Below, in pieces: positions 15,459 through 57,261 of a stretch of DNA of 64,000 nt. The position numbers were made by a program, and so were the translations under genes. Source of the stretch: Vescimonas coprocola (GTDB lineage Bacteria > Bacillota > Clostridia > Oscillospirales > Oscillospiraceae); the NCBI RefSeq assembly GCF_018408575.1, contig NZ_AP023418.1, positions 434,001-498,000 on the forward strand. The letters are read 5' to 3'. Below the pieces are notes generated by a model. That model saw only the letters and a program-made list of their open reading frames with translations. It searched no databases and was not told where the DNA came from. Position 1 is the stretch's first letter. Each line of letters begins with the position of its first letter.

Positions 15459-15459
15459 A

Positions 15460-18757: not shown

Positions 18758-18770
18758 AAGGAGGATGCCT

Positions 18771-20543
18771 ATGCCCGTATTAGACGGTGATTTTGAAGCC
18801 TTCGTCACGAACCTTGGCAAGTACAACGAGGGTATGCTGGTCGGTGAGTGGGTGAAGCTGCCCACAACCGAGGAAGAGATGCAGAAGGTCTTTGAGCGCA
18901 TCGGAATCGGCAAGCAGGATGATTTCGGTCAGCCCTACGAAGAGTGGTTTATCACCGACTACGAATGCCCGATCTATGGCGTTCAGAAGATGCTTGGCGA
19001 GTACGAGAGCCTTGATAAGCTCAACTACCTTGCCGCTTTGATTGACGAGCTTTCCCTGAGCGATCAGGAAAAACTCGTTGCCGTTATGGAGGCTGGCTGC
19101 GATGAGGTCAGCGATATTGACGATCTCATCAACCTGACGTTCAATCTGGACTGCTACGACATCATGCCCGGTATCAACGACGAATCCGATCTCGGCTACT
19201 ATTACGCCCACGAAGCCGGTATCTACTCTGAAAAGGATCTCGGTCCTCTGGCAAATTACATTGACTATGAACGCTATGGGCGCGACATTGCGATGGATGA
19301 GCAGGGACGCTTCACCGATGAGGGCTATGTCCGCGTTGCAAGCGAACGCTGGGACAGGCAGTTTAACGGGGAGCTTGATGATATTCCCGATGAATACCGG
19401 ATCACCGGCTCAGGGGAAGCCGTCGAGCGTGACGGCACCATCGCCGTTCTTATCGTCGAGCCGGGAAAGGAGCCTTATGTGAAGGAGATTGACTCCGGTC
19501 TGGAGTCCTTGCAGCATGAGGTCGGCGGCTGCATCGAGGCGATTTATCCCTATGAAGACCCGGTTGCCTTAGTCTGCAACGAGGAAGGCAAGCTGGAAGG
19601 TCTGCCTCTGAACCGCGCTCTGCGGGATGAGGACGGTGACATCTACGACGTTGTTGCCGGAACATTCATGGTAGTTGCCTTGACGGATGACAGCTTCGGC
19701 TCTCTGACCGTAGAGCAGATGCAGAAGTTCTCTGACCACTTCAAAGTGCCGGAGCAGTTTGTTAAGTTGGGCGATAAGATTGTTGCGATTCCCATGATCT
19801 CGAAGGAACAGCAGAAGCAGGAGAGCATCGAGCAGAAGGACTTTGAGATGAACGCCGATACCTCCGGTCTGACGGTTGCCGGTCACATCGGGACATGGCA
19901 CACCATTGATCAGCACGAGGTCGGCGGTCACAGCTTTTATTTGATGGAGCATGACACCTACGGCGATGAAGCGGCTTGCATCATCGTCGATGAGCGCGGC
20001 AAGCTCGTTCTTGATGATGTCTACAACGGCTTTGACGATGACACGCTCCGCCTTCTCGACCTTGAGGTCAAGGAAGTGCCGGAAATGCCGGATCCCACTC
20101 TCTCCATTCAGGATATGAAGGACTATGGCTACGCATGGGCTGGCGTTCTTCCCGCTGGGCAGGAGGCGGCAGAGAAGGCTTTGGAGAAGGGCTGCGAGGT
20201 TTACCGCCTCTATTCCGATAACACCGAGGGCTTGTGCGTAGATGCCAAGGAGATTGCCGATCATGCAGCAAAGGGCGGAATGCTCGGTATCAGCAAGGAA
20301 AGCTGGATGGCGGCTCTTGAGAAGGAAAACTACCTCAAGGCGGCGGAGATGTCGATGGAGGATGACTACGGCATGATTGATGGGATCATCAACAACGGTC
20401 CGAAGGAGGACAAGACCGCAGAGGTCAAAGCCCCCGAAAGGGGCGAAAAGTCCTCCATCATGGACAGGCTCAAGTCTGCAAAGGCTGAAAAGCAGAAGGA
20501 ATGCTGCCCTCCCAAAAAGCACAAAGGAGAGATTGAACTGTGA
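18771..20543 (+). CDS. ArdA-like antirestriction protein fused to DUF3846/YodL-type modules
   Basis: The N-terminal part (about 1-160; EWVKLPTTEEEMQKVFERIG, EEWFITDYE, LNYLAALIDELS) resembles ArdA, a DNA-mimic inhibitor of type I restriction enzymes, and is strongly acidic as expected. Residues about 220-310 (GTIAVLIVEPGKEPYVKEI, GGCIEAIYPYEDPVALVCNEEGKL) match DUF3846. The C-terminal part is YodL/LPD-like and ends in a basic PSIMDRLKSAK-type tail. AAAGGAGG (18757-18764) supports the ATG at 18771 (590 residues). It may protect this or incoming elements from type I enzymes, notable since the element carries its own type I system. Confidence 0.75.
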   Translation: MPVLDGDFEAFVTNLGKYNEGMLVGEWVKLPTTEEEMQKVFERIGIGKQDDFGQPYEEWFITDYECPIYGVQKMLGEYESLDKLNYLAALIDELSLSDQEKLVAVMEAGCDEVSDIDDLINLTFNLDCYDIMPGINDESDLGYYYAHEAGIYSEKDLGPLANYIDYERYGRDIAMDEQGRFTDEGYVRVASERWDRQFNGELDDIPDEYRITGSGEAVERDGTIAVLIVEPGKEPYVKEIDSGLESLQHEVGGCIEAIYPYEDPVALVCNEEGKLEGLPLNRALRDEDGDIYDVVAGTFMVVALTDDSFGSLTVEQMQKFSDHFKVPEQFVKLGDKIVAIPMISKEQQKQESIEQKDFEMNADTSGLTVAGHIGTWHTIDQHEVGGHSFYLMEHDTYGDEAACIIVDERGKLVLDDVYNGFDDDTLRLLDLEVKEVPEMPDPTLSIQDMKDYGYAWAGVLPAGQEAAEKALEKGCEVYRLYSDNTEGLCVDAKEIADHAAKGGMLGISKESWMAALEKENYLKAAEMSMEDDYGMIDGIINNGPKEDKTAEVKAPERGEKSSIMDRLKSAKAEKQKECCPPKKHKGEIEL

Positions 20544-22924: not shown

Positions 22925-24973
22925 TCATTCCTTGGCTGAGGGCAGACCTTCGTAAAATTTCCTCAGTTCGTCCAGACTGCTTGTACGATTCTTGATAGGC
23001 AGGGAGTCCCATGTGATGTCATGATAGCGTTCCGGCGGCTCGTCCCGCAGTCTTCGGTCGATAATGCAGACAATGCCGGTGTCTGTGAAATTGCGGATCA
23101 ATCGCCCGATGCCCTGCTTGAGCTTGATAATCATTTCGGGAACGCGGACATCCATCAGAGCGTCCTTTGCGACGGAACACTTATACTCGATAATTGGATC
23201 GGGGACAGGGAACGGAAGCCGGAAAATGATGACATTGGAAAGGCTTTTTCCTTCAATGCTGATACCTTCCCAATATGCACCCGTCCCCAGAAGCACGGAG
23301 TTCGTATCTTCCTTAAACTCAAGCAGCACCTTGTCCTGCGACGATCCCGGCTGCTGCATCAGGATTTTGTACGGAAGATTTTTCTTACTGAGAATGGAGT
23401 AGACCTCTTCCATGTCGGTCTTTGCCGTAAACAGCACGAGTGCCTTTCCATTGGAAATGTTCAGGATCTCAAGCAGCCGCTCCACGCCCTTTTCAATGAA
23501 GGCTTCATGTTCTCTGGTCGGGTGCGGGAGATCGTCGCAATAGTAGATCATGGCGTGTTCATCGTATGGATATGGGGAAGGCTTTGGCTCGGATAAGCAG
23601 CCGCGATCACCAGCGGGAAAGCCGGTATTGCTGATAAAGTAAGAATACTGTTCTTCCAGAGACCCGCTCGTGGCGTTCGTCAGCGTGGCAGAGGTCAAGA
23701 TGGTTCTTTCATCACCATTGAAGTATAGGCGGCTCACAATTTCTTTTGTGTTTTTAGGGCAATAGACGAGTTCCGTGTTGCTGCCGTGCTGCTCAATCCA
23801 GATCAGCATATCATCTATCTGGTCAAGAAGCTCTGAAAGGGACTCGCTGACGGCATCCAGATCATCAGAGGCAGCAAAGGAACGGTTGTTTCTGAAATCC
23901 ATGCTGGAATAAATCTGAATGCTGGACGAAAGGTTGTGTATGGCGGCGTTCATCTCGGTAAGCAGTTCAATCGCACTGCCATTGTTGTCGAAGAAAAAGC
24001 GGTCAGCGTAGCGCATATCCTGTTCTGCCTCGTTGATCTGCTTTTGGACTTGTGCTTTCAGGCAGTTATAGAAGGCGATGATTGCGCTCTCTGCCTCTCG
24101 CTTTTCACCTGACACACTGCTCTGGTCAAAGGATCGCAGCTCATAGAATGCGCTCTTAATCATTCCAAAGAGCATACCTTGCCCGAAACGCTCCGTTGTG
24201 GCACTCCGCACCTTATCATCCAAGTTGTGTGCTTCATCCACGACAAGCAGATCAGCGGCGGCGTTAATCAGCCCTTCCTGACCGCGCCGGAGTTTCATGA
24301 GATGCTGGGTTAAAAAATCCTGATTGCACAGTACCACTCCATCCGTAAACTTTAATGCTGCGCGGACTTTGTAATACTTGCACTTCTTTTCACAGGAGCC
24401 ACAATTCTTCATGCTGAACCGCTGCACGTTTACCTTGTCCCAGACTCCTTGCGGCAAAACCTCCGGGAAATCCTTGCGTTCCTCATACCCTTGCTTGATT
24501 CCTTCTTTGATCGCGTCCGGTGGGTCTGCTTTCGGGTCACACATATACTCATCTGCGCGTTTGTTGCAGAGATAATGGGTCTGTCCTTTTGCGAGGATAA
24601 CATCTCTGTTCAGCCCAAGAAGGGGCATTACCGCGTGGACATCGCGCCAGAGCTGTTCTTGAAGCGCAATGGTCGAGGTTGCGATGATAACCGGCTTGTT
24701 CATGCGTTTGCTGTACAGCAGCACCGGCACAAGATAACCAAAGGACTTTCCAATGCCCACGCCAGCTTCAATCGCAAAATGCTGATCGTTTATGAGGGCG
24801 TCCACAATCTCAAAGGACATATCCTGCTGCCCCTCACGCATTTCCAATCCATGCTGCGGGGCTTCATCCCAAAAGAAGGTGCTGACTTGCTCACTCATGG
24901 AGTACAGCTCTGCTTTTCTGCGCTTTTTCCGTTCCTCCGATGTATTGAATCCAAAATAGAATCTGTTGTCCAT
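22925..24973 (-). CDS. DinG/XPD-family superfamily 2 DNA helicase
   Basis: Walker A is AGVGIGKS at residues 70-77 and the DEAH box is at 246-249. Cysteines at about 136, 145, 191, 194 and 198 lie in the region where XPD/DinG helicases hold a 4Fe-4S cluster. Motif VI appears as KQGIGRLIRNFTDTGIVCIID. At 682 residues it fits DinG, a 5'-3' helicase that unwinds D-loops and R-loops. It was started at the ATG placed 7 bases after GGAGG. It follows the NYN gene by 29 bases within the restriction island, and DinG-like helicases are known partners in some defence systems. Confidence 0.88.
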   Translation of the reverse strand: MDNRFYFGFNTSEERKKRRKAELYSMSEQVSTFFWDEAPQHGLEMREGQQDMSFEIVDALINDQHFAIEAGVGIGKSFGYLVPVLLYSKRMNKPVIIATSTIALQEQLWRDVHAVMPLLGLNRDVILAKGQTHYLCNKRADEYMCDPKADPPDAIKEGIKQGYEERKDFPEVLPQGVWDKVNVQRFSMKNCGSCEKKCKYYKVRAALKFTDGVVLCNQDFLTQHLMKLRRGQEGLINAAADLLVVDEAHNLDDKVRSATTERFGQGMLFGMIKSAFYELRSFDQSSVSGEKREAESAIIAFYNCLKAQVQKQINEAEQDMRYADRFFFDNNGSAIELLTEMNAAIHNLSSSIQIYSSMDFRNNRSFAASDDLDAVSESLSELLDQIDDMLIWIEQHGSNTELVYCPKNTKEIVSRLYFNGDERTILTSATLTNATSGSLEEQYSYFISNTGFPAGDRGCLSEPKPSPYPYDEHAMIYYCDDLPHPTREHEAFIEKGVERLLEILNISNGKALVLFTAKTDMEEVYSILSKKNLPYKILMQQPGSSQDKVLLEFKEDTNSVLLGTGAYWEGISIEGKSLSNVIIFRLPFPVPDPIIEYKCSVAKDALMDVRVPEMIIKLKQGIGRLIRNFTDTGIVCIIDRRLRDEPPERYHDITWDSLPIKNRTSSLDELRKFYEGLPSAKE

Positions 24974-25002
24974 CCACATTCCTCCCGGAATAGAAACCAA
25001 GG

Positions 25003-26394
25003 CTATCCGCGTTTCAGTTCAATGCTGACGTTTCCGTTCTCGTCGATGGTCAGCGTCATGTGCCTGATGTGCTTCTCATAGAACTGCCGCCGCTCTGCGG
25101 GAGACATTTCGATCCTCGTGTTTCGCAGAGCAGCGTCAAACATATCGTTGACGTTCAGGTGAACGGAGTTGTCAATCCAGCGGTACATCTCCTTGAATAG
25201 TGCGTTTTTCTTGATGTCCTCGCTGTTGCCGGAGTAGAAGTCATCCAGATAGCAGTAGAATATCCCGGATTCTGCAAGTGCCGCCTTCATATCCGGTCCG
25301 CATTTTTCCCGCTCGATCATGACAAGAAATCTGGCGTCCGGCAAGGAAGAAATCAGCCCCCAGTAGTCGGAATCACTTGAGACGATGACGAAGGAATCCA
25401 CTTGCTTCTGGTAGTGTTCCTGACAGGCTCTTGCGGTGAGTTTGATGTCTACCAGTGACTTGTTCTGCTTGATCCGCTCAATCATGATATGTTCAACGGG
25501 GATGCGGGTGTAGTTTTCGAGAATGCGCCATGCCGTAGCAGTATGCACGTCATCAAAGAGAATAATCGCCGTAATTTTCTGCATGACTTCATAATCAAGA
25601 TTTTTGAGCGTGGCACATAGCTTGTACGGGTCAGAGTTTTCGCAGTCCACTACCAATACGGTCTTCTCGCTGTCATCTATGAAGTCGTAGATATTGTTTT
25701 TTACAAAAGCCCCTGCATCAGAGACTTTACTGTATTCTGTGAAGGCGTCGCAATGCCATTGATAAAGCAGGGTAGCAAACTTCTTATCATTATAGAGGAC
25801 ATTACCCTCGTCCATCGGTACCCAGTTGATATACATTTGATAGGGGTAGTAGGAGAGACTTGCGTAATAGATGTCCGCAGCATCTTTCGTTCCGTCCTCT
25901 GTCAAACCGTTTGGCATGATGAACAACTCTTTTATGTATGCCCAGTTAATCCAGATTGGAAAGAGGCTTTTGCAGTTGTTAATGCGGTCTGAAATCAGCC
26001 GGTTGATCTCTATAATATGGTGGCAGAGCTTTGTGCTCGACTTTTTGATAAAGCTGATTCCGTCATTTGAAAGCTGCTGCATACTGGATGTTGGAAGGAT
26101 CTCAGGCATCGAAAGAAGCCCACGGTATTCCATCCGCATGATGTCATTTATTTTCCGGTAATTGCGCTCAATGGCGGTGCGGATGATACATAGATTACGA
26201 ATGATACGGGCATTTTTATCCTGTTCAAGCCGGTTGTATATCTCTATCTTCGGCGGCTCGTGTTCATTTTGAAAAATGCGGAGCGGGACGCCGATCAGGT
26301 ATGCTACCTTTGACACAAGCTCATAGGTGCTGTCTTTGTAGGCAATCTGCTCTCCGGCATATTCGACGCCATTCAACATGACTGAATTGCCCAT
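25003..26394 (-). CDS. NYN-domain (PIN-like) putative ribonuclease
   Basis: The C-terminal half (about 245-385) has the NYN signature: LVVDCEN (Asp250), SLVDIKL (Asp316) and VIVSSDSDYWGLI (Asp341, Asp343). These acidic residues form the metal site of PIN-fold RNases. The N-terminal half (1-240) is not recognised and is rich in Tyr and Trp. AAAGGAG precedes the ATG. The gene lies 25 bases after hsdR and before the DinG-like gene, all in one direction, so it is likely co-transcribed with the restriction system. Confidence 0.75.
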   Translation of the reverse strand: MGNSVMLNGVEYAGEQIAYKDSTYELVSKVAYLIGVPLRIFQNEHEPPKIEIYNRLEQDKNARIIRNLCIIRTAIERNYRKINDIMRMEYRGLLSMPEILPTSSMQQLSNDGISFIKKSSTKLCHHIIEINRLISDRINNCKSLFPIWINWAYIKELFIMPNGLTEDGTKDAADIYYASLSYYPYQMYINWVPMDEGNVLYNDKKFATLLYQWHCDAFTEYSKVSDAGAFVKNNIYDFIDDSEKTVLVVDCENSDPYKLCATLKNLDYEVMQKITAIILFDDVHTATAWRILENYTRIPVEHIMIERIKQNKSLVDIKLTARACQEHYQKQVDSFVIVSSDSDYWGLISSLPDARFLVMIEREKCGPDMKAALAESGIFYCYLDDFYSGNSEDIKKNALFKEMYRWIDNSVHLNVNDMFDAALRNTRIEMSPAERRQFYEKHIRHMTLTIDENGNVSIELKRG

Positions 26395-26419: not shown

Positions 26420-29400
26420 TTACGCGGTCATTACATTGTCCGTCCACATCTCACACTGGCTCATGACAGTCTGGACAGCATCATCCATACCCTCTGGCGG
26501 ATATTTGTGTTTTTTCAGCAACCTTTTGACCAAGCGGCGCATTCCAGCTCTTGCGCTCTCTTTCTTTTGCCAGTCTATTGTCTGGTTTTTGCGAAGCAAA
26601 TCTGTCAGTTCTTTCGTGATAGCAATAAGCTCGTCATGCTCGTAAAAGTCCTTGATTGCTTGCGGCTTCGTGAGAGCATCATAGAAAGCAAGTTCGTCCG
26701 CTGTCAATCCGAGTTTTTCACCCTCGGCGGCAGCAGCGGCAATGTCTTTCGCCAGCTTGAGTAATTCTTGAATGACTTCCTCGTTGGTCAGCATTCCGTT
26801 CAAATAGCGGTTCATTGCGCTCTGAATGATTTCGGAGAACTTCTCGGATTTGACAATGTTTGTACGACGATAAACAGATACTTGTTCAGCAATCAGCTTT
26901 TTCAGAAGTTCGACTGCCAGATTCTTCTCCTTCATGTTTGCCACTTCTTCAAGGAACTTCGGATCGAACAACGAAAACTCAGTCTGGACATCGGAGAAGA
27001 GGTTGATAACGCCTTCGCTCTTGATGCTGTGCTTCAAAAGCTCGTTAATGCGCTCATTTACTTCCGGAAGCGTAAACTTCTTTCCGGTACCGCCTGAAAC
27101 CAAGCGCACGGTCATTGTTCTTACGGACTCGAAGAAAGCCGCCTCCATGCGAGTTTGCTCGTCTACCAAGCTGCTGCACAGCGAAAGTGCCTGCTTGAGA
27201 AGTAGCGCTTCTTTGATAAACACATTCTGTGTCTTCTCATTGTCGGGAAGATCGTACTCTGCAACACTCTTGCCGAGTATGAAGTTCACGCCGCCGCTGA
27301 TAAGCTTTGCACGGTCGAGGTCGCTTCCGGTCATGAATTTCTCATAACTGAATCCGTGGAACAAATCTCTACAAATAGAGAGCTTTTCAAGGAACTTCGG
27401 ATATGCAGCCTTGCTTACATCTGTATCACCATAGTTCTTCTTGTCTCTGGCAGTATAGTCGTTCATTGCCTGTTTCAGTGCAGCCGCAATACCGACGTAA
27501 TCAACAACCAAACCGCCTTCTTTATCTTTGAAGACACGATTGACGCGGGCGATAGCTTGCATCAGGTTGTGTCCAGCCATTGGCTTATAGACATACATCG
27601 TAGCAAGGGAGGGAACATCAAAGCCGGTCAGCCACATATCCACGACGATAGCGATTTTCAGCGGAGAGTTATTGTCTTTGAATTTCCGCGCCATATCGTC
27701 CTTATGCGCTTTATTGCCGATAATCTCACGCCATTCTTCTGGATCATTATTGCCTTGCGTCATGACCACTGCAATCTTTTCCGTCCACGCCGGGCGTAGC
27801 TCAAGAATGCGCTTATAAATCTTCATTGCTATGGGACGCGAATAAGCAACGATCATCGCCTTGCCGGTCAGGATATTCTCGCGGTAATTCTCGTAATGAT
27901 CAAGAATGTCATTTACCAAGGAGTTGATCGTCTGGTCGGCACCGAGGATTGCTTCCATCTGACCAAGTTCCTTTTTGCTCTTTTCAATGACATACGGATC
28001 GGCGTTGTCAGCCATAATGTCATACTCATTATCGATCAGATGGAGGGTGTTCTCGTCGAGTTTCAGGTGAATAACGCGGCTTTCGTAATAGACGGGTCTT
28101 GTAGCTCCGTCTTCAACTGCCTGTGTCATATCATAGATGTCGATGTAATCACCGAAGACCTCTCGTGTACTGCGGTCTTTTGTGGAGATCGGTGTTCCGG
28201 TGAATCCAATGTAGGTCGCATTAGGAAGCGTGTCTCTTATAATGCGGGCAGTGCCGATAACGGTTTTCGCCTCGACTTCGCCGTTGTCCTTCTGCTTGAC
28301 CACAACCTTCTCATTGAGACCATATTGCCCGCGATGCGCTTCATCAGCCATCACGATAATGTTCCGGCGTTCCGAAAGAGCTTCGTTGCCTTCTTCAAAC
28401 TTCTGCATGGTCGTGAAGATTATGCCGTTTGCCTGTCTGTTTGCAAGCAGTTCTTTCAGATTCTTGCGGCTCTCAGCGTGCTGCGGCGTTTGCCGGAGGA
28501 AGTCCTTGCAGCGGGCGAATTGTCCGTAAAGCTGGTCGTCCAGATCGTTACGGTCGGTAATGACAACGATAGTGGGGCTTTCTAACGCTTCTTGCAGATA
28601 ATGAGCATAGAAGACCATAGACAACGATTTTCCGCTGCCCTGTGTATGCCAGAAGACGCCACCCTTACCGTCCGTCACGGTTGCGTGTTTTGTAGACTCA
28701 ATCGCTTTTTTGACTGCGAAATACTGATGATACCCGGCGAGTATCTTGAAAGTATTCTGTCCATCCACATTAAAGCAGATGAAGTTTTTCACGATGTCAA
28801 TGAAGCGGGTCTTCTCAAACAGTCCTACAAAGAATGTGTCAAATGATGCGTGTTGCGTATTCTCATAGCTGCCGTCTGTTGTTTTCCACTCCATAAATCG
28901 GTCTTCGCCGGACGTGATTGTACCAGCCTTTGAAGTGGTCAAGTCGCTCATGACACATACCGCATTATAAATGAACATAGAGGGAATCTCATACATATAG
29001 TTCCGGAGCTGGCGGTATGCTGCGGAAGCATCGGTTTCTTCGCGGGACGGAGACTTCAACTCCACAATGACGAGTGGGAGACCATTGACAAAGAGAATCA
29101 CATCTGGTCTTTTTTCGGAGTTCTCAATGAAAGTCCATTGATTCGCAACTGTGAACTCGTTACTGGCAGGATTTTTGAAGTCTACAAGGTAAACAAGGGT
29201 AGAGCGTTCTTCACCCTTGTCATAGTATTTTACCGGGACTCCGTTTTGGAGGTAGTCCATAAAGACCATGTTCTTCTGCAAAAGCGTTCCGGTTTCAAAG
29301 TTCTTGAGCTTATAGATTGCCTCCGTCAGAGCATCCATTGGCAAGTTTTTGTTGATTCGCTGCAAAGAGGGCAGCAGGACATCCTCATAAAGCGGAGAGT

Positions 29401-29509
29401 GATAATCGCGCTCCACATCTGGTCCATAGACATAGGTATATCCAAGATCCTCATTGAGAAGCTGCAAGACGGCATTCTCATAATTTGATTCGGTAAAATA
29501 GCCCGACAT
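26420..29509 (-). CDS. hsdR: type I restriction enzyme, R subunit
   Basis: The N-terminal nuclease domain shows Asp136 and Glu150-Leu-Lys152 (PDVILFVNGLPLVIVELKSP), the PD-(D/E)xK pattern. The helicase motor follows with Walker A TQGSGKS (289-295) and ADEAH (388-392). The C-terminal part is helical and binds the methylase core. The length, 1029 residues, is normal. The subunit translocates DNA and cuts when unmethylated targets are recognised through HsdS. AGGGAG precedes the ATG. It stands downstream of the DUF3800 gene in the minus-strand operon. Confidence 0.95.
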   Translation of the reverse strand: MSGYFTESNYENAVLQLLNEDLGYTYVYGPDVERDYHSPLYEDVLLPSLQRINKNLPMDALTEAIYKLKNFETGTLLQKNMVFMDYLQNGVPVKYYDKGEERSTLVYLVDFKNPASNEFTVANQWTFIENSEKRPDVILFVNGLPLVIVELKSPSREETDASAAYRQLRNYMYEIPSMFIYNAVCVMSDLTTSKAGTITSGEDRFMEWKTTDGSYENTQHASFDTFFVGLFEKTRFIDIVKNFICFNVDGQNTFKILAGYHQYFAVKKAIESTKHATVTDGKGGVFWHTQGSGKSLSMVFYAHYLQEALESPTIVVITDRNDLDDQLYGQFARCKDFLRQTPQHAESRKNLKELLANRQANGIIFTTMQKFEEGNEALSERRNIIVMADEAHRGQYGLNEKVVVKQKDNGEVEAKTVIGTARIIRDTLPNATYIGFTGTPISTKDRSTREVFGDYIDIYDMTQAVEDGATRPVYYESRVIHLKLDENTLHLIDNEYDIMADNADPYVIEKSKKELGQMEAILGADQTINSLVNDILDHYENYRENILTGKAMIVAYSRPIAMKIYKRILELRPAWTEKIAVVMTQGNNDPEEWREIIGNKAHKDDMARKFKDNNSPLKIAIVVDMWLTGFDVPSLATMYVYKPMAGHNLMQAIARVNRVFKDKEGGLVVDYVGIAAALKQAMNDYTARDKKNYGDTDVSKAAYPKFLEKLSICRDLFHGFSYEKFMTGSDLDRAKLISGGVNFILGKSVAEYDLPDNEKTQNVFIKEALLLKQALSLCSSLVDEQTRMEAAFFESVRTMTVRLVSGGTGKKFTLPEVNERINELLKHSIKSEGVINLFSDVQTEFSLFDPKFLEEVANMKEKNLAVELLKKLIAEQVSVYRRTNIVKSEKFSEIIQSAMNRYLNGMLTNEEVIQELLKLAKDIAAAAAEGEKLGLTADELAFYDALTKPQAIKDFYEHDELIAITKELTDLLRKNQTIDWQKKESARAGMRRLVKRLLKKHKYPPEGMDDAVQTVMSQCEMWTDNVMTA

Positions 29510-29525
29510 TTGTACTCAACTCCCT

Positions 29526-31028
29526 CTATATAATATCCGCATAGATGCGGTTTTCAGCTTTTGTGAAGATTACCTCAGCAGGAAATAAATCTTCTCCTGT
29601 ATTTGCCATTGAAACCAGCGTCATTGCCCATTCGTTCATCTGTACAGGCAGCCTATAACATAGATTTTCAGGTGATGCCTCAACAGTGACTAATGGGATG
29701 CCGCCCTTTGCAATACCGACAGAAAGAACTACAAAGGCGTTTTTTCCTTTGGTGAGTTCCAGAATGGGTTGTCTGTCTACATCGTGATAAACTTTTGCGC
29801 CGCGTCGATTCCTAAAAAAATCCTTTTCTTGATCTTTCACCGGCTCAACAGGCAGCTTGTTTTTCATCTGCTCAAAATGGGTTTCAAGTCTTTGGCAGAT
29901 GCAGCTATTACAATACTCCGGTTGCATATCAAAGTCTTGTTCGATGTCTTTAGCTGAATTGAAAAGATTCATGAAATCCAGCAGTCCCAAAAAGCTTACA
30001 AGGTCATCTGAATAATTACCGGCATAGACCTTATACCAATCATTGTTGATCTCGAACACGATATGATAAAGCTGCTTGTATAGCTGTAACTGCCCATCGG
30101 TTAGTCTGAACCATTCTTTGCTAAGAAGAGTCTTCGCAATGCGGGGACTGTCCTGCGTCGGTGTCAAGGAATGGTATAGCGATTTCATCAGTTTGCCGAT
30201 AATTCCTACCAGCATATCAGCCATTCTAATTCCAAAGTGGTCTATCGAGTCTGCCTCTTCGCAATTCTTCAAACTGGCTTCTTTCGCGGCAATGAGAGTT
30301 TTGCTTTCGGCTCCTGCTTCACCTTCCTTGTCAAGCAAGACTGAATAATCAAGAATGCCCTTGCTGCTCAGGAAATTTCCAAACCCGACGAACTGCGAAT
30401 GGTAGTCCCAAGCGAGGGACTGCGGAACATCGACGTTATTCAGTACATAAAGGACGGCTTCAAATGCCGTGTTTTCCTGCGCCTTCAATTCGCGGTTTTT
30501 TTTGTTGCGCCTAATCCGGTTCGTCAAGAATGTCATTAACGCAGCTACAAACTCTGCTGGGCTTTTATACAGGCTTTCAATTACCTCTCTGGGTCGGTAT
30601 GTAACTATCGCTTTGACTATTGAGTAGCGTGCAGCGTCCATATCAAAGAAGACGCTATTGCGATAGCCTTTGAAAATCTGGGTGATAACGTATTCGATTT
30701 TGCTTGCACAGAACAGATAGATATAGCTGTTCTCATCAAAGATGGAGAAGAAAGCTCCAAGCAGCTTTACATTTGCTTCGTTGAGAGAGGCAAATCCATG
30801 AACTAACTGCTTCGGCTTTATCGTTCCGCTTTTCAGCTCTCCTTTTTTCTTCCTATCAGCGTATTTTTCTTCAAAAGCATGATAACGCTGTTCAAAAGCT
30901 GTTTCGTGATCGCTGCGCCACCCGATAATAGCTGCCAGAAAACCATCATAATATGTCTCACCAGTAACGGTTGAGAGATTGATGACCCTGCTATGCTCAG
31001 ACTCATCGTAGTAAAAGCAGTATTTCAT
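29526..31028 (-). CDS. DUF3800-like protein in the restriction operon
   Basis: The N-terminus FYYDESEHSR and the later block DHFGIRMADMLVGIIG match the two acidic hallmarks of DUF3800 proteins, predicted to have an RNase H-like fold and often found with phage-defence genes. At 500 residues it is longer than most members and has an added C-terminal domain (from about 385) with a CNSCICQ cysteine pair. GGAGGG precedes the ATG. Its ribosome binding site lies immediately beside inversion site A, so the expression of this gene could depend on the orientation of the hsdS cassette. Confidence 0.65.
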   Translation of the reverse strand: MKYCFYYDESEHSRVINLSTVTGETYYDGFLAAIIGWRSDHETAFEQRYHAFEEKYADRKKKGELKSGTIKPKQLVHGFASLNEANVKLLGAFFSIFDENSYIYLFCASKIEYVITQIFKGYRNSVFFDMDAARYSIVKAIVTYRPREVIESLYKSPAEFVAALMTFLTNRIRRNKKNRELKAQENTAFEAVLYVLNNVDVPQSLAWDYHSQFVGFGNFLSSKGILDYSVLLDKEGEAGAESKTLIAAKEASLKNCEEADSIDHFGIRMADMLVGIIGKLMKSLYHSLTPTQDSPRIAKTLLSKEWFRLTDGQLQLYKQLYHIVFEINNDWYKVYAGNYSDDLVSFLGLLDFMNLFNSAKDIEQDFDMQPEYCNSCICQRLETHFEQMKNKLPVEPVKDQEKDFFRNRRGAKVYHDVDRQPILELTKGKNAFVVLSVGIAKGGIPLVTVEASPENLCYRLPVQMNEWAMTLVSMANTGEDLFPAEVIFTKAENRIYADII

Positions 31029-31044
31029 CTCATCCCTCCTAACG

Positions 31045-31061
31045 TAAACGATAATTTAGAG
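31045..31061 (+). repeat. hsdS inversion site A
   Basis: TAAACGATAATTTAGAG in plus orientation. It encodes the NDNLE of the silent hsdS 3' half and is an exact inverted copy of site B over 17 bp. Confidence 0.85.
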
Positions 31062-31715
31062 CAGCAAGCGCAAGCAATATATCATGAGCGTTTTGAGACT
31101 GTTTCGCCTAATGATTTGCCTTCCGACTGGCGTATTGTAACTCTTGGAGAGGTTGCGACGATCTCAAATAAGAGTTTCAACCCACTGAAAGAGCCTGAGA
31201 TACTGCTTGAGCATTATAGCATTCCAGCTTTTGATGAGGCGAGGTTTCCGGTCTTTGAGCTATCCACATCCATCAAGAGCAATAAATTCATCATTGATGC
31301 CTCGTGCTTCATGATCTCAAAACTCAACCCAACAACGAAGCGTGTTTGGAAGCCGTATTGTCTGACCGGGAATGCAGTATGCTCTACGGAGTTCATCGTC
31401 TATAAAGCAAAGGATCAATCTATTACGGATTTCCTGTACTCAGTCATAGACAGCGGCTCCTTTTCCGACTTTATGTGTAGTCATGTTACTGGCTCAACGG
31501 GCAGTAGACAAAGAACAACACCGTCGGACACGCTCTCTTATGAGTTAATTCTTCCTTCGGAGGACGAGCTGGCAGAGTTTCAGTCTCTCGTTTCACCGAT
31601 GTACGCTCAAATGCGGATTAACGCCATTGAAAACGACAAGCTCAAACGACTTCGGGATAGTCTTTTACCCAAGCTGATGTCCGGCGAGATTGATGTCTCT
31701 TCTGTTCATCTCTAA
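31047..31715 (+). CDS. hsdS: silent inverted hsdS 3' half (second TRD plus conserved C-terminus)
   Basis: Reading from site A, the frame gives NDNLEQQAQAIYHERF, then a target-recognition domain (DWRIVTLGEVATISNKSF...), then the conserved HsdS end LKRLRDSLLPKLMSGEIDVSSVHL. It has no start or ribosome binding site of its own and faces away from all other restriction genes. It is therefore a silent cassette that would be joined in frame to the adjacent 5' half by inversion between sites A and B. Its last bases overlap the end of that opposing 5' half. Confidence 0.88.
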   Translation, partial: NDNLEQQAQAIYHERFETVSPNDLPSDWRIVTLGEVATISNKSFNPLKEPEILLEHYSIPAFDEARFPVFELSTSIKSNKFIIDASCFMISKLNPTTKRVWKPYCLTGNAVCSTEFIVYKAKDQSITDFLYSVIDSGSFSDFMCSHVTGSTGSRQRTTPSDTLSYELILPSEDELAEFQSLVSPMYAQMRINAIENDKLKRLRDSLLPKLMSGEIDVSSVHL

Positions 31716-32266
31716 GCCTCTAAATTATCGTTTATCCTTTCGTTGTTTTCAATTTTGGTATCAAGGCTATCCAGCACAGCAGCAATTCGGTTTTGGTAGC
31801 TGACATCTAAGGGAATGCGTACCTTAACAGCCCTCATCGTTTTTCCTGATACTTCCTTAAAGGTGGTTCCGCTTCCCATCGCTTCGATAGCGTCCTTGTT
31901 GTACTTCAAAAGGTAGTAAACAAATAGCGGATCAGCTTTTTCATTTACGACAATACTCTTGAATCCCTGATTGGTACAAACACTTTGAGAAGCGATTGCG
32001 ACGTAACCAATGGGAGCGCGTGATGTGAAGAGAACAGCATCTTTCGGCATCATTTGTGCAGAACATGACGCAAGTCCCTTTTCGGTTATATTTCTTTCCC
32101 CGCTGGTTATGTATCTTCCTTTGAAAGAAGATAGGTCTTTGGGCGTTATCCACGGAATACTGCCTCCGTAGTAGTCTTCACATTTTGTAGATGGGGTTGC
32201 CCCACCAACTATTTCTCCTAATTTATCAAGAGTACACTCAATCCATTCTGTCATGCGGTACACCAT
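31712..32266 (-). CDS. hsdS: hsdS 5' half (first TRD), truncated at inversion site
   Basis: This 184-residue frame begins MVYRMTEWIECTLDKLGEIVGGATP, a typical HsdS start, contains one complete target-recognition domain (IPWITPKDLSSF...MGSGTTFKEVSGKTM) and the first conserved helix (VLDSLDTKIENNERINDNLE), then stops just past site B. In its present state it encodes half an HsdS, which might dimerise, as known for some half-S subunits, or be inactive. Flipping the segment A-B would extend it into the silent 3' half to make a full HsdS of about 400 residues. The ATG for MTEW is another possible start. Confidence 0.88.
   Translation of the reverse strand: MVYRMTEWIECTLDKLGEIVGGATPSTKCEDYYGGSIPWITPKDLSSFKGRYITSGERNITEKGLASCSAQMMPKDAVLFTSRAPIGYVAIASQSVCTNQGFKSIVVNEKADPLFVYYLLKYNKDAIEAMGSGTTFKEVSGKTMRAVKVRIPLDVSYQNRIAAVLDSLDTKIENNERINDNLEA
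31718..31734 (-). repeat. hsdS inversion site B
   Basis: Reverse complement of TAAACGATAATTTAGAG; lies at the 3' end of the minus-strand hsdS 5' half, where it encodes NDNLE followed by Ala and a stop. Confidence 0.85.
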
Positions 32267-32267
32267 C

Positions 32268-33251
32268 CTATCCGATGTATTTTCTATGTGCCAGCTTCAC
32301 ATTCTGTTGTTTCACCATTGCATAGTGCATGGTGGTGTCGATTTTCTGATGCCCTAAGAGCTGCTGGACTTGCTCTATGGGCATTCCTTTGTCTATGGCA
32401 GTTGTAGCCAGTGTACGCCTGAACTTGTGAGGGTGAACCTTCGGGATATTCAGACGCTTTCCCAGCTCCCGAAGGCGTGTCTCCACTCCGCCAATCATCA
32501 ATCGGTCAAAGGGAGCTTTCAGGGAAACAAACAAAGCTGGGTTTTCATCTGTTCGCCCCTCAAGATAGTTTTGAAGGTGGATCTTCGTCCTTGCATCGAA
32601 GTAGACCAATCGTTCTTTATTGCCCTTGCCGATAACCACGCATTCGCGTTCGTTGAAGTTGATGTCTTCGCGGTTTAGCGTGACCAGTTCTCCAACACGC
32701 ATTCCGGACGAAGCCAGAAGATCAACCATAGCCAAATCACGCGCCGTTGTACAGTTGTCGCGCATCAGCTCCAACGCTTCATCGGTGTAGGTGTCCTTAA
32801 CAACCTTTGCGGTTTTCACCTTATGAATCCGTCGCACCGGACTTTTCACGATGAAGTCCTCATCCTCAAGCCAAGAGAAGAAACTGGACAGGATCCGGCG
32901 GATGTTGTCTATGGTCACTTTACTCGACCTTCGCTGAACCTGATAGTTGGTTAGATAGCGGCGCAAATCATCTGTGGTGACCTGTTGCACAGCCTTTCCG
33001 ACTCCGGCAATCAGAGATTCAATCGTCTTCCGGTAGTAGCTCAGGGTTTTCTCTGAGCAGCCTTCGATCCGTTTTGCCGTGATAAATGCTTCGACTGCAT
33101 CTGTTTCTTCTGCTGGAATTGAGCCACTATCATAGGTGATCGTTGCCCCTTCCAATGTCTCAGCCATTGCATCCCGAAGGTGCATGAGCTGTTCGTTATT
33201 GAGATATGGCAGCATTTTTCGCTGTATCTCCGTGATGAGTTGTTCTGTCAT
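32268..33251 (-). CDS. tyrosine recombinase of the hsdS inversion cassette
   Basis: The 327-residue protein has an N-terminal SAM-like core-binding domain (about 48-135) and a catalytic domain with Arg185 (SSGMRVGEL), His275 and Arg278 (HPHKFRR), His301 (LLGHQ) and nucleophile Tyr310 (TTMHYA). The family is XerC/D-like. Its place between two hsdS loci and among four inverted copies of one short site makes it the likely DNA invertase that shuffles the specificity halves. A good AAAGGAG-like site precedes the ATG. It is separated from the hsdS 5' half by one base. Confidence 0.9.
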   Translation of the reverse strand: MTEQLITEIQRKMLPYLNNEQLMHLRDAMAETLEGATITYDSGSIPAEETDAVEAFITAKRIEGCSEKTLSYYRKTIESLIAGVGKAVQQVTTDDLRRYLTNYQVQRRSSKVTIDNIRRILSSFFSWLEDEDFIVKSPVRRIHKVKTAKVVKDTYTDEALELMRDNCTTARDLAMVDLLASSGMRVGELVTLNREDINFNERECVVIGKGNKERLVYFDARTKIHLQNYLEGRTDENPALFVSLKAPFDRLMIGGVETRLRELGKRLNIPKVHPHKFRRTLATTAIDKGMPIEQVQQLLGHQKIDTTMHYAMVKQQNVKLAHRKYIG

Positions 33252-33305
33252 TGTCGTGTCTCCTTTCGAGGTAAGAGAACGACATTCAGTGGCAGTCCCT
33301 TTTGT

Positions 33306-33330
33306 AAAACTCTCGCCACTGGTGAGAGTT
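33306..33330 (-). terminator. hairpin terminator after hsdS (minus strand)
   Basis: AACTCTC and GAGAGTT form a short stem; on the minus strand the right arm is followed by TTTTACAAAA. It lies between inversion site C and the recombinase gene, so it could limit read-through from the restriction operon into the recombinase gene. Confidence 0.5.
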
Positions 33331-33340
33331 ATTCAGACGG

Positions 33341-33355
33341 TAAACGATAATTTAG
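33341..33355 (+). repeat. hsdS inversion site C
   Basis: TAAACGATAATTTAG in plus orientation just past the stop of the expressed hsdS. It is inverted relative to site D, so C and D flank the expressed second TRD. Confidence 0.85.
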
Positions 33356-33359
33356 CGGC

Positions 33360-34532
33360 TTAGAGCTGGATGTCAGAAACATCAATCTCGCCGGACATGA
33401 GTTTCGGCAATAGCGCGTCACGCACTTCGGCAAGTTTGGTATTCTCGTCTTCGTTTGCCCAGATTTGCTCAAAAAGTGGAGTGACAGTTTCCGTAAAAGA
33501 GTCCATTGTGTTTTTGTCAGGAATGATGATCTCAGTTTTGCGGAAATCAGGAACCGTTAATTGTTGCTGAGTTGTACCAGTTCCGGTTATGTGAAGCTGG
33601 CGTAAATATAAATACAGATATTTCGCGCTAAGCACCTTTGTGTCAGGAATCAGCGTTACCAAACGAACAATCGGAACATAGGGGGTATGTCTCAAGCATA
33701 CATAACCAATCGTACCTCTGGCAGAAACCGTAACACTTTCAACTTTGATCTTCGGATCGTTGGTGTAACCGTACAAGCCGTAGTCATTTATACCATTCGA
33801 GTAAATGGGATATGGACACAAAGGTGTTTTAACCGGAGAAGATTCCTTCGGTTTATCGCCGCCAGCGCCCATTTCAGTAGCATCGCCAAGCGTGCTTATA
33901 GTCCAATTAGGCGGCATTGTCCCGTCAAACGGTGTGAGGTCTACGAACAATGCTTTGAAAAGTGTTGCTGCTTGCTGATGTAAATTATCGTTTAGCTGTT
34001 CGTTTACAATCAACTTCCTATCAATAGATTCAAGTGTGCCTACGATGGCGTTCTGCTCATCAAATGAAACGGGGTAGTTGATCATAATTTCATCTAACAG
34101 GCGGTCACGGTTTAGTTCAGTTTGTCCCGTAGAGCCTTCATCCAACTGCAAGACTTCCCATTGGTGCGCTTTAAGAGCATAACCAAGGAACTTCTGCGTT
34201 ACCTTTCCGTTTGAACGGATAAGGATCATGTGTCCGTCTATTGTAGTTGCGGATGGAACATCTTCAATTTGCGCAATTCTCCCAGCAGTTCCCGCGCCTG
34301 TCGAATTGATCAGAATATCATCAGGTTTGACATATCGTTCAGGAGGGACTTTCTTTTTCAGGGTATCATGCAACCTTGAATCTCCATAGCTTATTCGGAA
34401 ATTCCGATTGCACTTTTGATTGAGAACTCTAATGGTTGTCTCGGATGCTTCTTCTGCATACGAAGGAGCAATTCCTTTGGAAATATACCCAACCAGCTCT
34501 CTTAACGGTACCTCATGCCACTCAGATGTCAT
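33360..34532 (-). CDS. hsdS: type I restriction specificity subunit, expressed copy
   Basis: The 390-residue protein has two target-recognition domains (about 1-160 and 205-350), each followed by a conserved helix; the central one holds NDNL at 181-184, encoded by inversion site D, and the C-terminus is LAEVRDALLPKLMSGEIDVSDIQL, nearly identical to that of the silent cassette. HsdS reads the bipartite target and sets specificity for both cutting and methylation. The ATG (MTSEWHEVPL) overlaps the end of hsdM by 11 bases, indicating translational coupling. Confidence 0.93.
   Translation of the reverse strand: MTSEWHEVPLRELVGYISKGIAPSYAEEASETTIRVLNQKCNRNFRISYGDSRLHDTLKKKVPPERYVKPDDILINSTGAGTAGRIAQIEDVPSATTIDGHMILIRSNGKVTQKFLGYALKAHQWEVLQLDEGSTGQTELNRDRLLDEIMINYPVSFDEQNAIVGTLESIDRKLIVNEQLNDNLHQQAATLFKALFVDLTPFDGTMPPNWTISTLGDATEMGAGGDKPKESSPVKTPLCPYPIYSNGINDYGLYGYTNDPKIKVESVTVSARGTIGYVCLRHTPYVPIVRLVTLIPDTKVLSAKYLYLYLRQLHITGTGTTQQQLTVPDFRKTEIIIPDKNTMDSFTETVTPLFEQIWANEDENTKLAEVRDALLPKLMSGEIDVSDIQL
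33981..33994 (-). repeat. hsdS inversion site D
   Basis: Reverse complement of TAAACGATAATTTA (14 bp core) inside the expressed hsdS, at the joint between its two halves. Confidence 0.85.
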
Positions 34533-36024
34533 ATCCAATCGCCCCCAGTCGTTCTTTGATCTGAGCTTCAAGTTCATGAGACTTAGTGAAAAGCTCAGAC
34601 AGTTCAGAAGTCAGGCGTCCCATTTTCTCTTCAAACGGCTCACCGTCATCTTCCTGTTCCTCAATGCCAACATAGCGTCCCGGAGTGAGAATGTAATCCT
34701 GCTTTGCAATGTCCTGCGTAGTAACAACCGCACAGAAGCCCTTTTCATCTTCAAGTGTTCCTTCAACAAAGGCGTTGTAGGTGTCAGCGATTTTCTTGAT
34801 GTCTTCATCCGTCAGCTCACGCAGCTTCCGCGTAACCATAGTGCCGAGCTTCCGTGCGTCGATGAATAGCGTCTTGCCCTTCTGCTTCTTGTTCTTTGCA
34901 AGGAACCAAAGTGATACCGGAATCTGCGTCGTGTAGAATAACTGCGTCGGCATTGCGACGATACAGTCTACAAGGTCAGCGTTAATAATGTTTTTGCGGA
35001 TTTCGCCTTCACCGCCGGACTGCGAGGAAAGCGAACCATTTGCAAGCACCATACCGATACGTCCATTCGGGGCGAGATGCCAGATCATGTGCTGCAACCA
35101 TGCAAAGTTGGCGTTGCCAGCAGGAGGCGTACCATACTGCCAACGGACATCATCAACGAGTTTATCTGCACCCCAGCCGGAGAGATTGAAGGGCGGATTT
35201 GCCATAATGAAGTCTGCCTTGAGCTGAGGGTGGCAATCGTTAAAGAACGTGTCCGCATTAAACTTGCCGAGGTCGGCTTCAATACCGCGAATGGCAAGAT
35301 TCATCTGCGCCATCTTCCATGTGGTCGGGTTGGAGTCCTGACCAAAAACGGAAATCTTGTTGATGTTGCCGCCGTGATTCTCGATGAACTTTGCGGACTG
35401 AACAAACATACCGCCAGAGCCGCAGCACGGGTCATAAACACGTCCATTAAACGGCTGCAACACCTCAACAAGGGTACGCACAACACAAGAGGGAGTATAG
35501 AACTCACCAGCAAGTTTGCCTTCTTGCTCGGCAAACTTGGAGAGGCAATATTCGTATGTGCGACCAAGAATGTCCTTGCTGTTTCCATGCTCGATCATCT
35601 GAATATTGGTGAAGAGATCAACCACTTCACCAAGACGCCGCTTGTCCAGCTCTGGACGGGCGAAGTTCTTAGGAAGAATATCTTTGAGACGCTTGTTTTC
35701 TTTCTCAATACTGCGCATTGCATCATCAATCACCGTGCCAATTTCCGGCGTGTGAGCGGCAGCAGCAATCGCGCTCCATCGTGCATTCTCAGGGACAAAG
35801 AAGATGTTTTCGGCAGTGTATTCGTCCTGGTCTTCTTCAAATCCATCGCCTTCTTCAACCAGTTCCTTGTACTTTGCCTCGAAGCGATCAGAAATGTATT
35901 TCAAGAAAATCAATCCGAGGACGACGGACTTGTATTCGGATGCGTCGATGTTTCCGCGCAGAACGCAAGCCGCGTCCCAGATTTGTTTTTCAAAGCCGAT
36001 ATTGCTTGTGTTATTCTCAGCCAT
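34522..36024 (-). CDS. hsdM: type I restriction-modification DNA methyltransferase, M subunit
   Basis: The 500-residue protein has the N-terminal helical HsdM domain (IWDAACVLRGNIDASEYKSVVLGLIFLKYISDRF), SAM-binding motif DPCCGSGG at 198-205 and catalytic NPPF at 276-279, the hallmark of N6-adenine methylation. It forms the M2S methylase with HsdS. The start ATG lies after GGAGG; a TTG five codons upstream is less likely. It is the first enzyme gene of the operon, about 70 bp after an XRE regulator gene in the same direction. Confidence 0.95.
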   Translation of the reverse strand: MAENNTSNIGFEKQIWDAACVLRGNIDASEYKSVVLGLIFLKYISDRFEAKYKELVEEGDGFEEDQDEYTAENIFFVPENARWSAIAAAAHTPEIGTVIDDAMRSIEKENKRLKDILPKNFARPELDKRRLGEVVDLFTNIQMIEHGNSKDILGRTYEYCLSKFAEQEGKLAGEFYTPSCVVRTLVEVLQPFNGRVYDPCCGSGGMFVQSAKFIENHGGNINKISVFGQDSNPTTWKMAQMNLAIRGIEADLGKFNADTFFNDCHPQLKADFIMANPPFNLSGWGADKLVDDVRWQYGTPPAGNANFAWLQHMIWHLAPNGRIGMVLANGSLSSQSGGEGEIRKNIINADLVDCIVAMPTQLFYTTQIPVSLWFLAKNKKQKGKTLFIDARKLGTMVTRKLRELTDEDIKKIADTYNAFVEGTLEDEKGFCAVVTTQDIAKQDYILTPGRYVGIEEQEDDGEPFEEKMGRLTSELSELFTKSHELEAQIKERLGAIGYDI

Positions 36025-36093
36025 TTCAGCAACCTCCAAAGTTATAGTTTCACACTTACTATTCTACAAAAAGAGCTGTACGAAAAACCGGAC

Positions 36094-36482: not shown

Positions 36483-37847
36483 TTATTCGCGCTGTGTGCT
36501 GCGCAGATGATCACGGTCATGGTCAACAGAAGGAGCGAGAAACGTATCAACATTAGACTTGATCGTCTCTATTTGCTTTACTTCTTTTTTGAGCTTCGCA
36601 CGTTCATCATAGAGCCGCTGCTGCTCTTCAAGAAGTCGCTGCTGTTCCGCTTGCAGTGTCTTCATGCTCGGCAGTTTTTCATCGCCCTGCATGGCAAGTA
36701 ATGTGCTTCTCGCTGCCTCAAAGATCACAAGCTCGGCTTCGTGCTTTGCTTTGAAACCCGGCTTGTCTTTTGCCTTCTGGAAGGCGTCATATACAGGCTT
36801 GAGCCGCTGGTAGTTGGAGATGTTTTTGATAAGCGGCTGGATTTCCCGCAGACGTGCTTCAACGCCTTTCAGTTCCTTGCCGGTACGGTCATAGGAGCTG
36901 TGAACATCCTCGACCTTCTTCTCAAGATCGGCGTATTGGAGCAAGTTGTTTTCCGTGAGATAGTTGAGTGTCCGTGCCGCTTCCTTGAGGATCGTGAGCT
37001 TGGCTTTATACTCATAGCCCTTGCTGTCGATAAGTCTGATCCGCTCCTGAATATCTCCGATGAGAGAGATGCCCTTCGGCACAGTCTGCCTCCGGTTTCT
37101 GCGCGGCGTCCGTCCGGCAATCCGCTCCTTGATGCGTTCCTCGGTGTAGTTCTCTCCGATGGTTTTAGACCGGGTAAACCGCTCCTGTCCTTCAGCGCGA
37201 AAGGAGATATATTTGCCGGTCTTGATTTCATAACCAGCTTCCTGCATGAGCCGCAGAAAATCATCGTAATCCTTCGCTGTAATGACAAGCCGGTCGATGG
37301 TCTGCTTGAGTTTCTGCTTCCAGCTCGTGCCGCGTTTGGCTTCGGTGTACTCCTTGTAGCCCATGCCTTTGTTCTGAGAGGGAGGGATAACAGAGAGACC
37401 GTTTTCCTTACAGAGCCGGTCGCTGACCTCGCGCATATCATAGTAAATCCGCTTGTAGCTCTTGTATGCGTGGTAGTCCACAAAGTCAACCGCATTGAAA
37501 ATCAGATGGTTATGAACATGGTCTTTGTCAATGTGAGTGGTCAGCACATACTCATATTTTCCTCCGAGGATTTCGTCTGCAAACTGCTTGCCGATCTCGT
37601 GGGCAAGCTCCGGTGTGACCTCTCCAATTTCAAAGGACTGGATCACATGACGAGCTATGATCCTGACCGGATTCATCCCTTTTTGCTCGGCTATTTTCCG
37701 CGTCCACTCAAATTCCCGCGCTGCGGTCTCGCTGGCACAGCCGTAGGACGAGACCAGCAGCTTCTCATCGGTCTTTTCGGGATTCAGAATGTACGCGATT
37801 GCCTTGCTCAAAGTTCCTCGGATTGCTTTGATTTTAGTAACTGCCAT
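36483..37847 (-). CDS. MobP-type relaxase
   Basis: The 454-residue protein begins AVTKIKAIRGTLSKAIAYILNPEKT, typical of VirD2/MobP relaxases of Firmicutes ICEs. The metal-binding three-histidine motif is HIDKDHVHNH (from residue 105), and a candidate catalytic tyrosine lies near the N-terminus (Tyr19 or Tyr35). The C-terminal half (about 290-440) is a long coiled coil. The enzyme nicks oriT and pilots the strand into the recipient. It overlaps mobC by 40 bases. Confidence 0.92.
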   Translation of the reverse strand: MAVTKIKAIRGTLSKAIAYILNPEKTDEKLLVSSYGCASETAAREFEWTRKIAEQKGMNPVRIIARHVIQSFEIGEVTPELAHEIGKQFADEILGGKYEYVLTTHIDKDHVHNHLIFNAVDFVDYHAYKSYKRIYYDMREVSDRLCKENGLSVIPPSQNKGMGYKEYTEAKRGTSWKQKLKQTIDRLVITAKDYDDFLRLMQEAGYEIKTGKYISFRAEGQERFTRSKTIGENYTEERIKERIAGRTPRRNRRQTVPKGISLIGDIQERIRLIDSKGYEYKAKLTILKEAARTLNYLTENNLLQYADLEKKVEDVHSSYDRTGKELKGVEARLREIQPLIKNISNYQRLKPVYDAFQKAKDKPGFKAKHEAELVIFEAARSTLLAMQGDEKLPSMKTLQAEQQRLLEEQQRLYDERAKLKKEVKQIETIKSNVDTFLAPSVDHDRDHLRSTQRE

Positions 37848-38137
37848 ACCGCGTCCATCTTTTCTTTCAGCTCGTCAATATCGTCCTGATAGAATCGTCC
37901 CGTCGAGTTGATCCTGCGGCAGACGGTATTGATGTTCACGCCGATCTTGTTGATTTCGGCGGCGAGCTTTTTCTGCTCTGTGTAGTCCACAACGATGATG
38001 TAGCCGTCGATCAGCATCTTCCTTGCATACGCACCGAAGTTCTCCGTGCCGATCATCTCCATCTTCTTTGCAATCGTCCGTTCTTCCTGTGGTGTCAGCC
38101 AAATCTTCTTCTGAATGTCTCGTGTTCTTCGTACCAT
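37808..38137 (-). CDS. mobC: MobC-like relaxosome accessory protein
   Basis: The 109-residue basic protein has an N-terminal ribbon-helix-helix-like part (RTRDIQKKIWLTPQEERTIAKKM) and the MobC signature region (NFGAYARKMLIDGYIIVVDY, LAAEINKIGVNINTVCRRINSTG). MobC proteins bind oriT and help the relaxase open the strands. The ATG chosen has GGAGG upstream. Transcription runs away from the candidate oriT region and into the relaxase gene. Confidence 0.9.
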   Translation of the reverse strand: MVRRTRDIQKKIWLTPQEERTIAKKMEMIGTENFGAYARKMLIDGYIIVVDYTEQKKLAAEINKIGVNINTVCRRINSTGRFYQDDIDELKEKMDAVWQLLKSKQSEEL

Positions 38138-38231
38138 GCTGCGCCCTCCGTCGTAAAGATTAGAAGGGTTTGGGACTATCCCAACAAGCAAAAATCTGAT
38201 GTTAAGGGCAGGATCTCCTTAATTGATTTTT

Positions 38232-53462: not shown

Positions 53463-53477
53463 AGGAGGGATGAGCAA

Positions 53478-57184: not shown

Positions 57185-57192
57185 AGAAAACG

Positions 57193-57252: not shown

Positions 57253-57261
57253 AGTCCCTAC

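Follow-up and report, generated by a model that had tools for sequence, protein, structure and literature searches.

A type I restriction-modification operon organized around a tyrosine recombinase lies within a 64,000-nt stretch of the Vescimonas coprocola genome (assembly GCF_018408575.1, contig NZ_AP023418.1, forward-strand positions 434,001–498,000), which we call the window and whose numbering we use throughout. On the minus strand the operon runs hsdM, hsdS1, recombinase, hsdS2 5' half, reversed cassette Y, a gene for a 500-amino-acid (aa) protein and hsdR. Pfam and NCBIfam searches identify all three type I components. hsdM (34522..36039) encodes the N6-adenine methyltransferase subunit (N6_Mtase 6e-112, HsdM_N 2.9e-28) and hsdR (26420..29509) the restriction subunit (HSDR_N 3.1e-40, SWI2_SNF2 7.7e-78). 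hsdS1 (33360..34577), whole by frame check, joins a first target recognition domain (TRD1a) to cassette X and matches Methylase_S in two stretches (1.2e-26); its start is probably the ATG at 34532 (390 aa) rather than position 34577, given its likeness to the hsdS2 start. Cassette X (33341..33994, minus strand), delimited by sites and frames, is the second TRD of hsdS1, in the ON orientation between sites C and D. The 5' half of hsdS2 (31712..32266; TRD1b, Methylase_S 4.9e-31) starts at 32266 and ends after 184 aa, directly behind site B (INDNLEA-stop). Facing it on the plus strand between sites A and B is cassette Y (31045..31734, coding part 31047–31715), a silent, reversed second TRD that gave no match of its own in the Pfam search but aligns with the second half of hsdS1 at 28.6% identity (234 columns, E 4.8e-26). 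The 500-aa protein between cassette Y and hsdR (29526..31028, minus strand) found no match in the Pfam search; the gene at the same position in Lactococcus plasmids is annotated DUF3800.

The recombinase (32268..33251, minus strand, 327 aa), sited between the two hsdS genes, is XerA-like (Phage_integrase 4.3e-33; NCBIfam recomb_XerA_Arch 245 bits, cut-off 220) and has a complete catalytic set. Residues R185, K209, H275, R278, H301 and Y310 are each conserved in all 85 of the four-site loci described below.

Four exact copies of TAAACGATAATTTA surround the recombinase in the order +, −, +, −. These are site A (s4, 31045..31058, +), site B (s3, 31721..31734, −), site C (s2, 33341..33354, +), just past the hsdS1 stop, and site D (s1, 33981..33994, −), at the TRD1/TRD2 joint of hsdS1. 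A window scan allowing up to two mismatches found nothing beyond these copies, and none of 100 dinucleotide-preserving shuffles reached four (mean 0.25). Across the 2.56-Mb genome there is no further exact copy, and the backward control pattern gave 0. A first-pass annotation of the window had recognized four inverted sites, and they hold up as exact 14-mers unique in the genome; its coordinate for the second, 31718(−), is the start of a 17-nt arm common to A and B (31045–31061 / 31718–31734), whereas the 14-mer itself starts at 31721.

Each site, read in its own direction, encodes NDNL, at or beside an HsdS joint as the annotation had it. The readings are NDNLHQQ inside the whole hsdS1 (D), NDNLAA-stop, in reverse, directly after the hsdS1 stop (C), INDNLEA-stop at the end of the hsdS2 5' half (B) and NDNLEQQ at the start of reversed cassette Y (A). 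The geometry it drew is likewise confirmed, with C and D flanking the expressed TRD, A and B the silent reversed one, and the hsdS2 half ending right after B. NDNL is a linker motif, and constraint on the coding sequence can preserve two of the four sites, so they might be conserved HsdS linker codons of an inert remnant in which nothing moves. That can hardly be right: site C and the A-end/B-end copies after stops escape the linker constraint, and the within-locus identity of the site centre, the plasmid rearrangements and the alternative junctions in relatives, all given below, also speak against it.

Frame checks predict that the sites connect four productive states. In the assembled arrangement HsdS1 has 390 aa and HsdS2 has 184, so that exactly one hsdS is whole. 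Flipping both cassettes in silico gives HsdS1/HsdS2 of 186/400 aa, swapping them with flips 402/184 aa, and swapping them without flips 186/388 aa. A lone A–B inversion gives 390/400 aa, both whole, and a lone C–D inversion 186/184 aa, neither whole. The two 5' halves have their own starts (34532 and 32266). Their first TRDs are 26% identical over 73 residues and the second TRDs, X and Y, 29% over 234 columns; therefore four specificities are possible, in keeping with the earlier estimate of up to four. Domain matches and frames also support its overall description, a phase-variable type I system with two 5' halves, two 3' cassettes and an intervening tyrosine recombinase. The mobile element in the window can thus probably change the DNA that its restriction enzyme recognizes. 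Each HsdS combination would confer its own methylation motif, four in all, and the locus is predicted to switch in the window's own strain.

The site core is followed at cassette ends by GCGGCTTA or close variants, and in the window the sequence after the core yields stops on both strands, closing the cassette frame with TAA and the truncated 5' half with TAG. Functional half HsdS exist in other systems. The conserved short tail and stop would give a defined protein here too (~184 aa, one TRD), and paired half-subunits might read a symmetric target, making two activities per state. We regard this as very improbable, since a stop is needed at that place anyway, and the motifs detected in Streptococcus suis, in the accessible text of PMC10790761, are only those of complete HsdS.

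The window locus is a real, well-preserved member of the kind represented by S. suis SsuCC20p (PMC10790761, PMC5198162); the lasting point is the one-whole-HsdS rule and its breadth. In the accessible text of those reports, SsuCC20p shares with the window hsdM, hsdR, four TRDs, a tyrosine recombinase between two hsdS genes, two 5' halves, four alleles, one complete hsdS at all times and location on a mobile element. The SsuCC20p sites form two identical 14-bp inverted sets, TAAATCATCATTTA / TAAATGATGATTTA; the window likewise has four like 14-bp sites, arranged + − recombinase + − and flanking two second-TRD cassettes, but with another centre (CGATAA). The TRDs differ, and SsuCC20p is prophage-borne whereas the window locus lies beside conjugation genes. 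Switching and methylation were shown experimentally in SsuCC20p; in the window they are predicted from sequence. A mobile cassette retaining both 5' halves, proposed as the novelty of the window, had thus already been described. PMC10790761 further reports that every assembly with a complete locus, from 22 isolates, has one complete hsdS, that xerD is never inverted, that switching depends on xerD and that the downstream hsdS is expressed. Its authors describe the design as restricted to streptococci and, giving the mechanism of the rule as unknown, speculate about coordinated double recombination.

Other described systems overlap with this design in part. Pneumococcal cod/SpnIII with PsrA/CreX (PMC7096588, PMC4948785) also combines a tyrosine recombinase inside a type I locus with hsdS inversion, but it uses three unlike repeat pairs (15, 85 and ~300 bp) and only hsdSA is functional; the window has one site sequence, and its hsdS2, unlike the silent extra hsdS that mark the cod type, has its own start codon. 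Pneumococcal tvr/SpnIV, in the accessible text of PMC6265443, also uses a recombinase to shuffle the TRDs of a type I locus and differs in its direct repeats, circular intermediate and toxin-antitoxin homologues; the window's layout, judged with its gene list, is one of inverted pairs. Inverton group 145 of the hCom2 gut community (PMC11892184) comprises invertons that overlap hsdS and have a tyrosine recombinase, relaxase and MobC close by; its members come from Firmicutes_A and Bacteroidota. Compared by description, it probably belongs to the same family, although the accessible text treats its members as single invertons, unlike the four-site reading here. A REBASE survey is described as using repeats of at least 20 bp (PMC7394358) and would therefore have missed 14-bp sites. 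Our literature search, which reached few subscription journals, found no statement of the one-whole rule outside S. suis.

Relatives of the recombinase reveal how far the design extends. With the recombinase as query we kept the best 80 of 185 loci in the genome collection, alongside 7 matches in viral contigs and 13 plasmid records. Whole-genome searches gave matches at order level in 15 of 394 genomes and at class level in 21 of 391 (E ≤1e-70); at E ≤1e-90, 6 of 398 genomes matched at phylum level and 7 of 400 at family level. Each count includes the window's genome. Among 143 loci examined for site layout (142 fetched plus the window), 90 had the clean four-site pattern, 83 without exact duplicates. 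Adding L060 and L087 brings the non-identical loci with the + − recombinase + − layout to 85. By identity, their HsdM proteins form three or more classes (62, 13 and 7 loci; the remaining 3 have no hsdM in reach). The design occurs in Clostridia, on plasmids of lactic acid bacteria and in gut metagenomes, extending the SsuCC20p kind beyond streptococci.

The sites share an architecture across loci. The 14-bp core, T-AAA-NNNNNN-TTT-A, consists of 4-bp arms and an asymmetric 6-bp centre. The centre takes 11 forms across loci, yet one form is shared by all four sites within each of the 83 loci, and all 26 within-locus mismatches fall at positions 1, 2 or 14. Both features would follow from strand exchange taking place within the centre.

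One whole HsdS is the rule across this sample. Eighty loci were callable, the 85 less three with an inverted recombinase (L035, L085, L139) and two with one uncallable slot (L040, L116). The L139 call rests on HsdS-like ends, its hsdM being off the contig; for L038 and L075, among the 80, hsdM is out of reach; L132, in which both strands of the right slot are open, was scored as hsdS2 whole; and near-identical backbones with different cassettes (e.g. L142–L144, L033/L034, L025/L026) were counted separately. Only hsdS1 is whole in 38 loci, only hsdS2 in 39, neither in three and both in none. Independent cassette orientation would predict about 40 exceptions (binomial p 1.4e-19), and the 38:39 split is even. 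Independent flipping, with one on/off cassette pair per hsdS, was accordingly rejected, the cassettes lying opposite in 77 of 80. When 78 loci are grouped by recombinase identity, 51 of 54 groups at 95%, 38 of 41 at 90% and 23 of 26 at 80% are free of exceptions; at 70% three groups are left and the test is uninformative. Among 110 pairs with a recombinase identity of 90% or more, 56 differ in state; descent therefore does not account for the even split, and the loci are nearly independent draws. Incomplete or left-out loci L024, L030, L146 and L050 (left junction read) also obey the rule. We put at about 0.92 the probability that the recombinase and four sites shuffle two cassettes between two HsdS 5' halves, with normally one HsdS whole.

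Comparisons among relatives show cassette rearrangement at the level of assembled sequence. Four Lactococcus plasmids are 100% identical in backbone, compared over 2500 bp ahead of the cassettes, the 1580 bp that separate them and 3000 bp beyond, and their sequence breaks coincide with the sites. In pJM2A and pUC073A (L142/L145), slot 1 has X forward and slot 2 has Y reversed; in pUCCL627F (L143), slot 1 has Y forward and slot 2 has X reversed; in pJM1A (L144), both slots have X, reversed then forward. These plasmids offer a model system. In L144 and L104, where one cassette occupies both slots, the copies are 100% identical, which suggests exchange between cassette copies.

Two metagenome-assembled genomes (MAGs) contain alternative junctions. 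In the Lachnospiraceae MAG G1514, one contig runs from the S2 5' half into Y, and a second contig continues the same 75 bp into X; the other end of X there meets an S1 5' half next to hsdM. In MAG G1512, the S2 5' half meets the start of X on one contig and the end of Y on another. These are the two positives among four genomes whose extra contigs were compared, out of eight searched; the extra contigs of the genomes with L030 and L042 held nothing relevant to alternative junctions. Contig ends also concentrate at the sites: of 36, nine are no more than 5 nt from a site boundary, where about 0.2 would be expected; the 36, listed by hand, are those of the 26 loci reaching a contig end among the best 80 of 185. 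Read from contig ends alone, this is what assemblers produce when a sequence can continue in more than one way.

The same rearrangements bear on a tvr-like route, in which a circle bearing the recombinase, the S2 half and one cassette is excised between direct sites and reinserted elsewhere. s1/s3 and s2/s4 are direct pairs, the mechanism is documented for tvr (PMC6265443), and by enumeration one double event swaps the slots without a flip and leaves one HsdS whole. Excision alone never alters cassette orientation, however, while L142 and L143 differ by a swap plus flip, and the window's layout lacks the two direct-repeat types of tvr. We judge it decidedly unlikely.

Several observations weigh against orderly cassette shuffling that leaves one HsdS whole. 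L076, L104 and L148 have neither hsdS whole, as does the incomplete locus L110, where one site was not found; L097, also incomplete with two of four sites unrecognisable, has both whole. That exchanges are coupled cannot be taken as proven, in view of the recombinase-inverted arrangement of L018 (three sites) and of 3 among the 85 four-site loci, and of the recombinase-inverted junction of G1514, the product expected from a single s2–s3 exchange. Some recombinase relatives (e.g. L105–L109, L133) have no such four-site set around them; most divergent recombinases from the whole-genome search are without the layout, and a generic search for other site families there gave no consistent four-site set. 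Within-locus centre identity was partly favoured by a search allowing one mismatch, and the assembly of the window strain contains one arrangement only. The first-pass annotation fares unevenly on these points. Off-states, which it considered possible, are rare (3 of 80). The A–B inversion it foresaw does restore a second full hsdS in silico, but both-whole loci number 0 of 80 complete callable ones and appear once among incomplete ones (L097). Its exchange of halves between A or B and C or D, as a lone A–D or B–C inversion, would also flip the recombinase gene.

Selection could make the rule if cassettes flipped independently and cells with two or no whole HsdS were lost. The imbalance of 0 both-whole to 3 neither-whole loci could reflect this, and S. 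suis hsdS states are reported to differ in infection fitness (PMC10790761). Recombinase-inverted loci lean the other way: they have one whole HsdS whichever way the silent cassette lies, yet their cassettes remain opposite in all three four-site loci and in L018, 4 of 4, although the cases are few. A legal switch also yields a new specificity, so restriction of self-DNA alone would not single out lone flips. Selection is an unlikely, though serious, contender.

Under the shuffling we favour, the recombinase would exchange strands between 14-bp sites, moving X and Y between two slots beside halves S1 and S2 and giving four products (S1.X, S1.Y, S2.X, S2.Y), normally one per state. There would be one whole HsdS at a time because the two cassettes keep opposite orientation. 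Free single inversions reach 16 enumerated arrangements, of which four have normal recombinase orientation and one whole HsdS. The question raised is how four like sites avoid 12 of 16 states (two thirds or more), and the rule across our sample makes the open mechanistic remark of the S. suis paper testable. One option is two coupled exchanges per event, each of three site pairings turning a one-whole state into another; with both pairs exchanged together, these four arrangements and no others are reached. The three pairings and the identity would form a closed group, and each event would lead from single HsdS to single HsdS, never to two or none. The other option is that lone single-cassette inversion is disfavoured and exchanges across the recombinase segment are allowed. 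The G1514 contigs show that a single exchange across this segment does occur, and we have dropped strict coupling as proven. This leaves two live mechanisms, coupled exchange and rarity of lone inversion within a cassette. More tentatively, and at somewhat less than even odds, the four-site layout may be a general one-whole-HsdS device in which two exchanges are coupled in one four-site complex, inverted forms and exceptions being failed single exchanges.

The surroundings of the hsd locus support a conjugative element, a candidate for the integrative and conjugative element that the first-pass annotation had named. A type IV coupling protein (915–2684), a TraG-like ATPase (5176–7752), a relaxase with MobC adjoining hsdM (36483–38191), four large serine-recombinase genes almost end to end (51828–58695) and, after them, a second relaxase (59534–60892) underlie this reading. 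The window also encodes an NlpC/P60 protein and a topoisomerase. Beside hsdR lie a DinG-like helicase (best PADLOC match: type IV-A CRISPR-associated DinG) and an adjoining NYN-domain protein (22925–26394). ArdC-like (15421–17334) and ArdA-like (18750–20543) antirestriction proteins share the element with the switching restriction system. A plasmid search for a near-identical whole operon matched only a 341-bp helix-turn-helix stretch outside the hsd genes.

Recombinase relatives also occur in other arrangements. Divergent recombinases (57–66%) at L105–L128, L133 and L137 lie beside other type I systems, several with a palindrome-like repeat, direct rather than inverted, on both sides of the recombinase gene. 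L150/L151, from a plasmid of the archaeon Methanosphaera, encode a recombinase of 58% identity, and no hsdM match lies close to it. In two MAGs (L065, L071), hsdM sits inside a two-site-bounded segment, divergent from the recombinase, and the contigs begin and end exactly at a site. L046 has six sites (+ − + − + −) and two recombinase copies. In pRV500 (L154) a single slot is left, faced from both sides by two 5' halves, and the recombinase lies opposite to hsdM.

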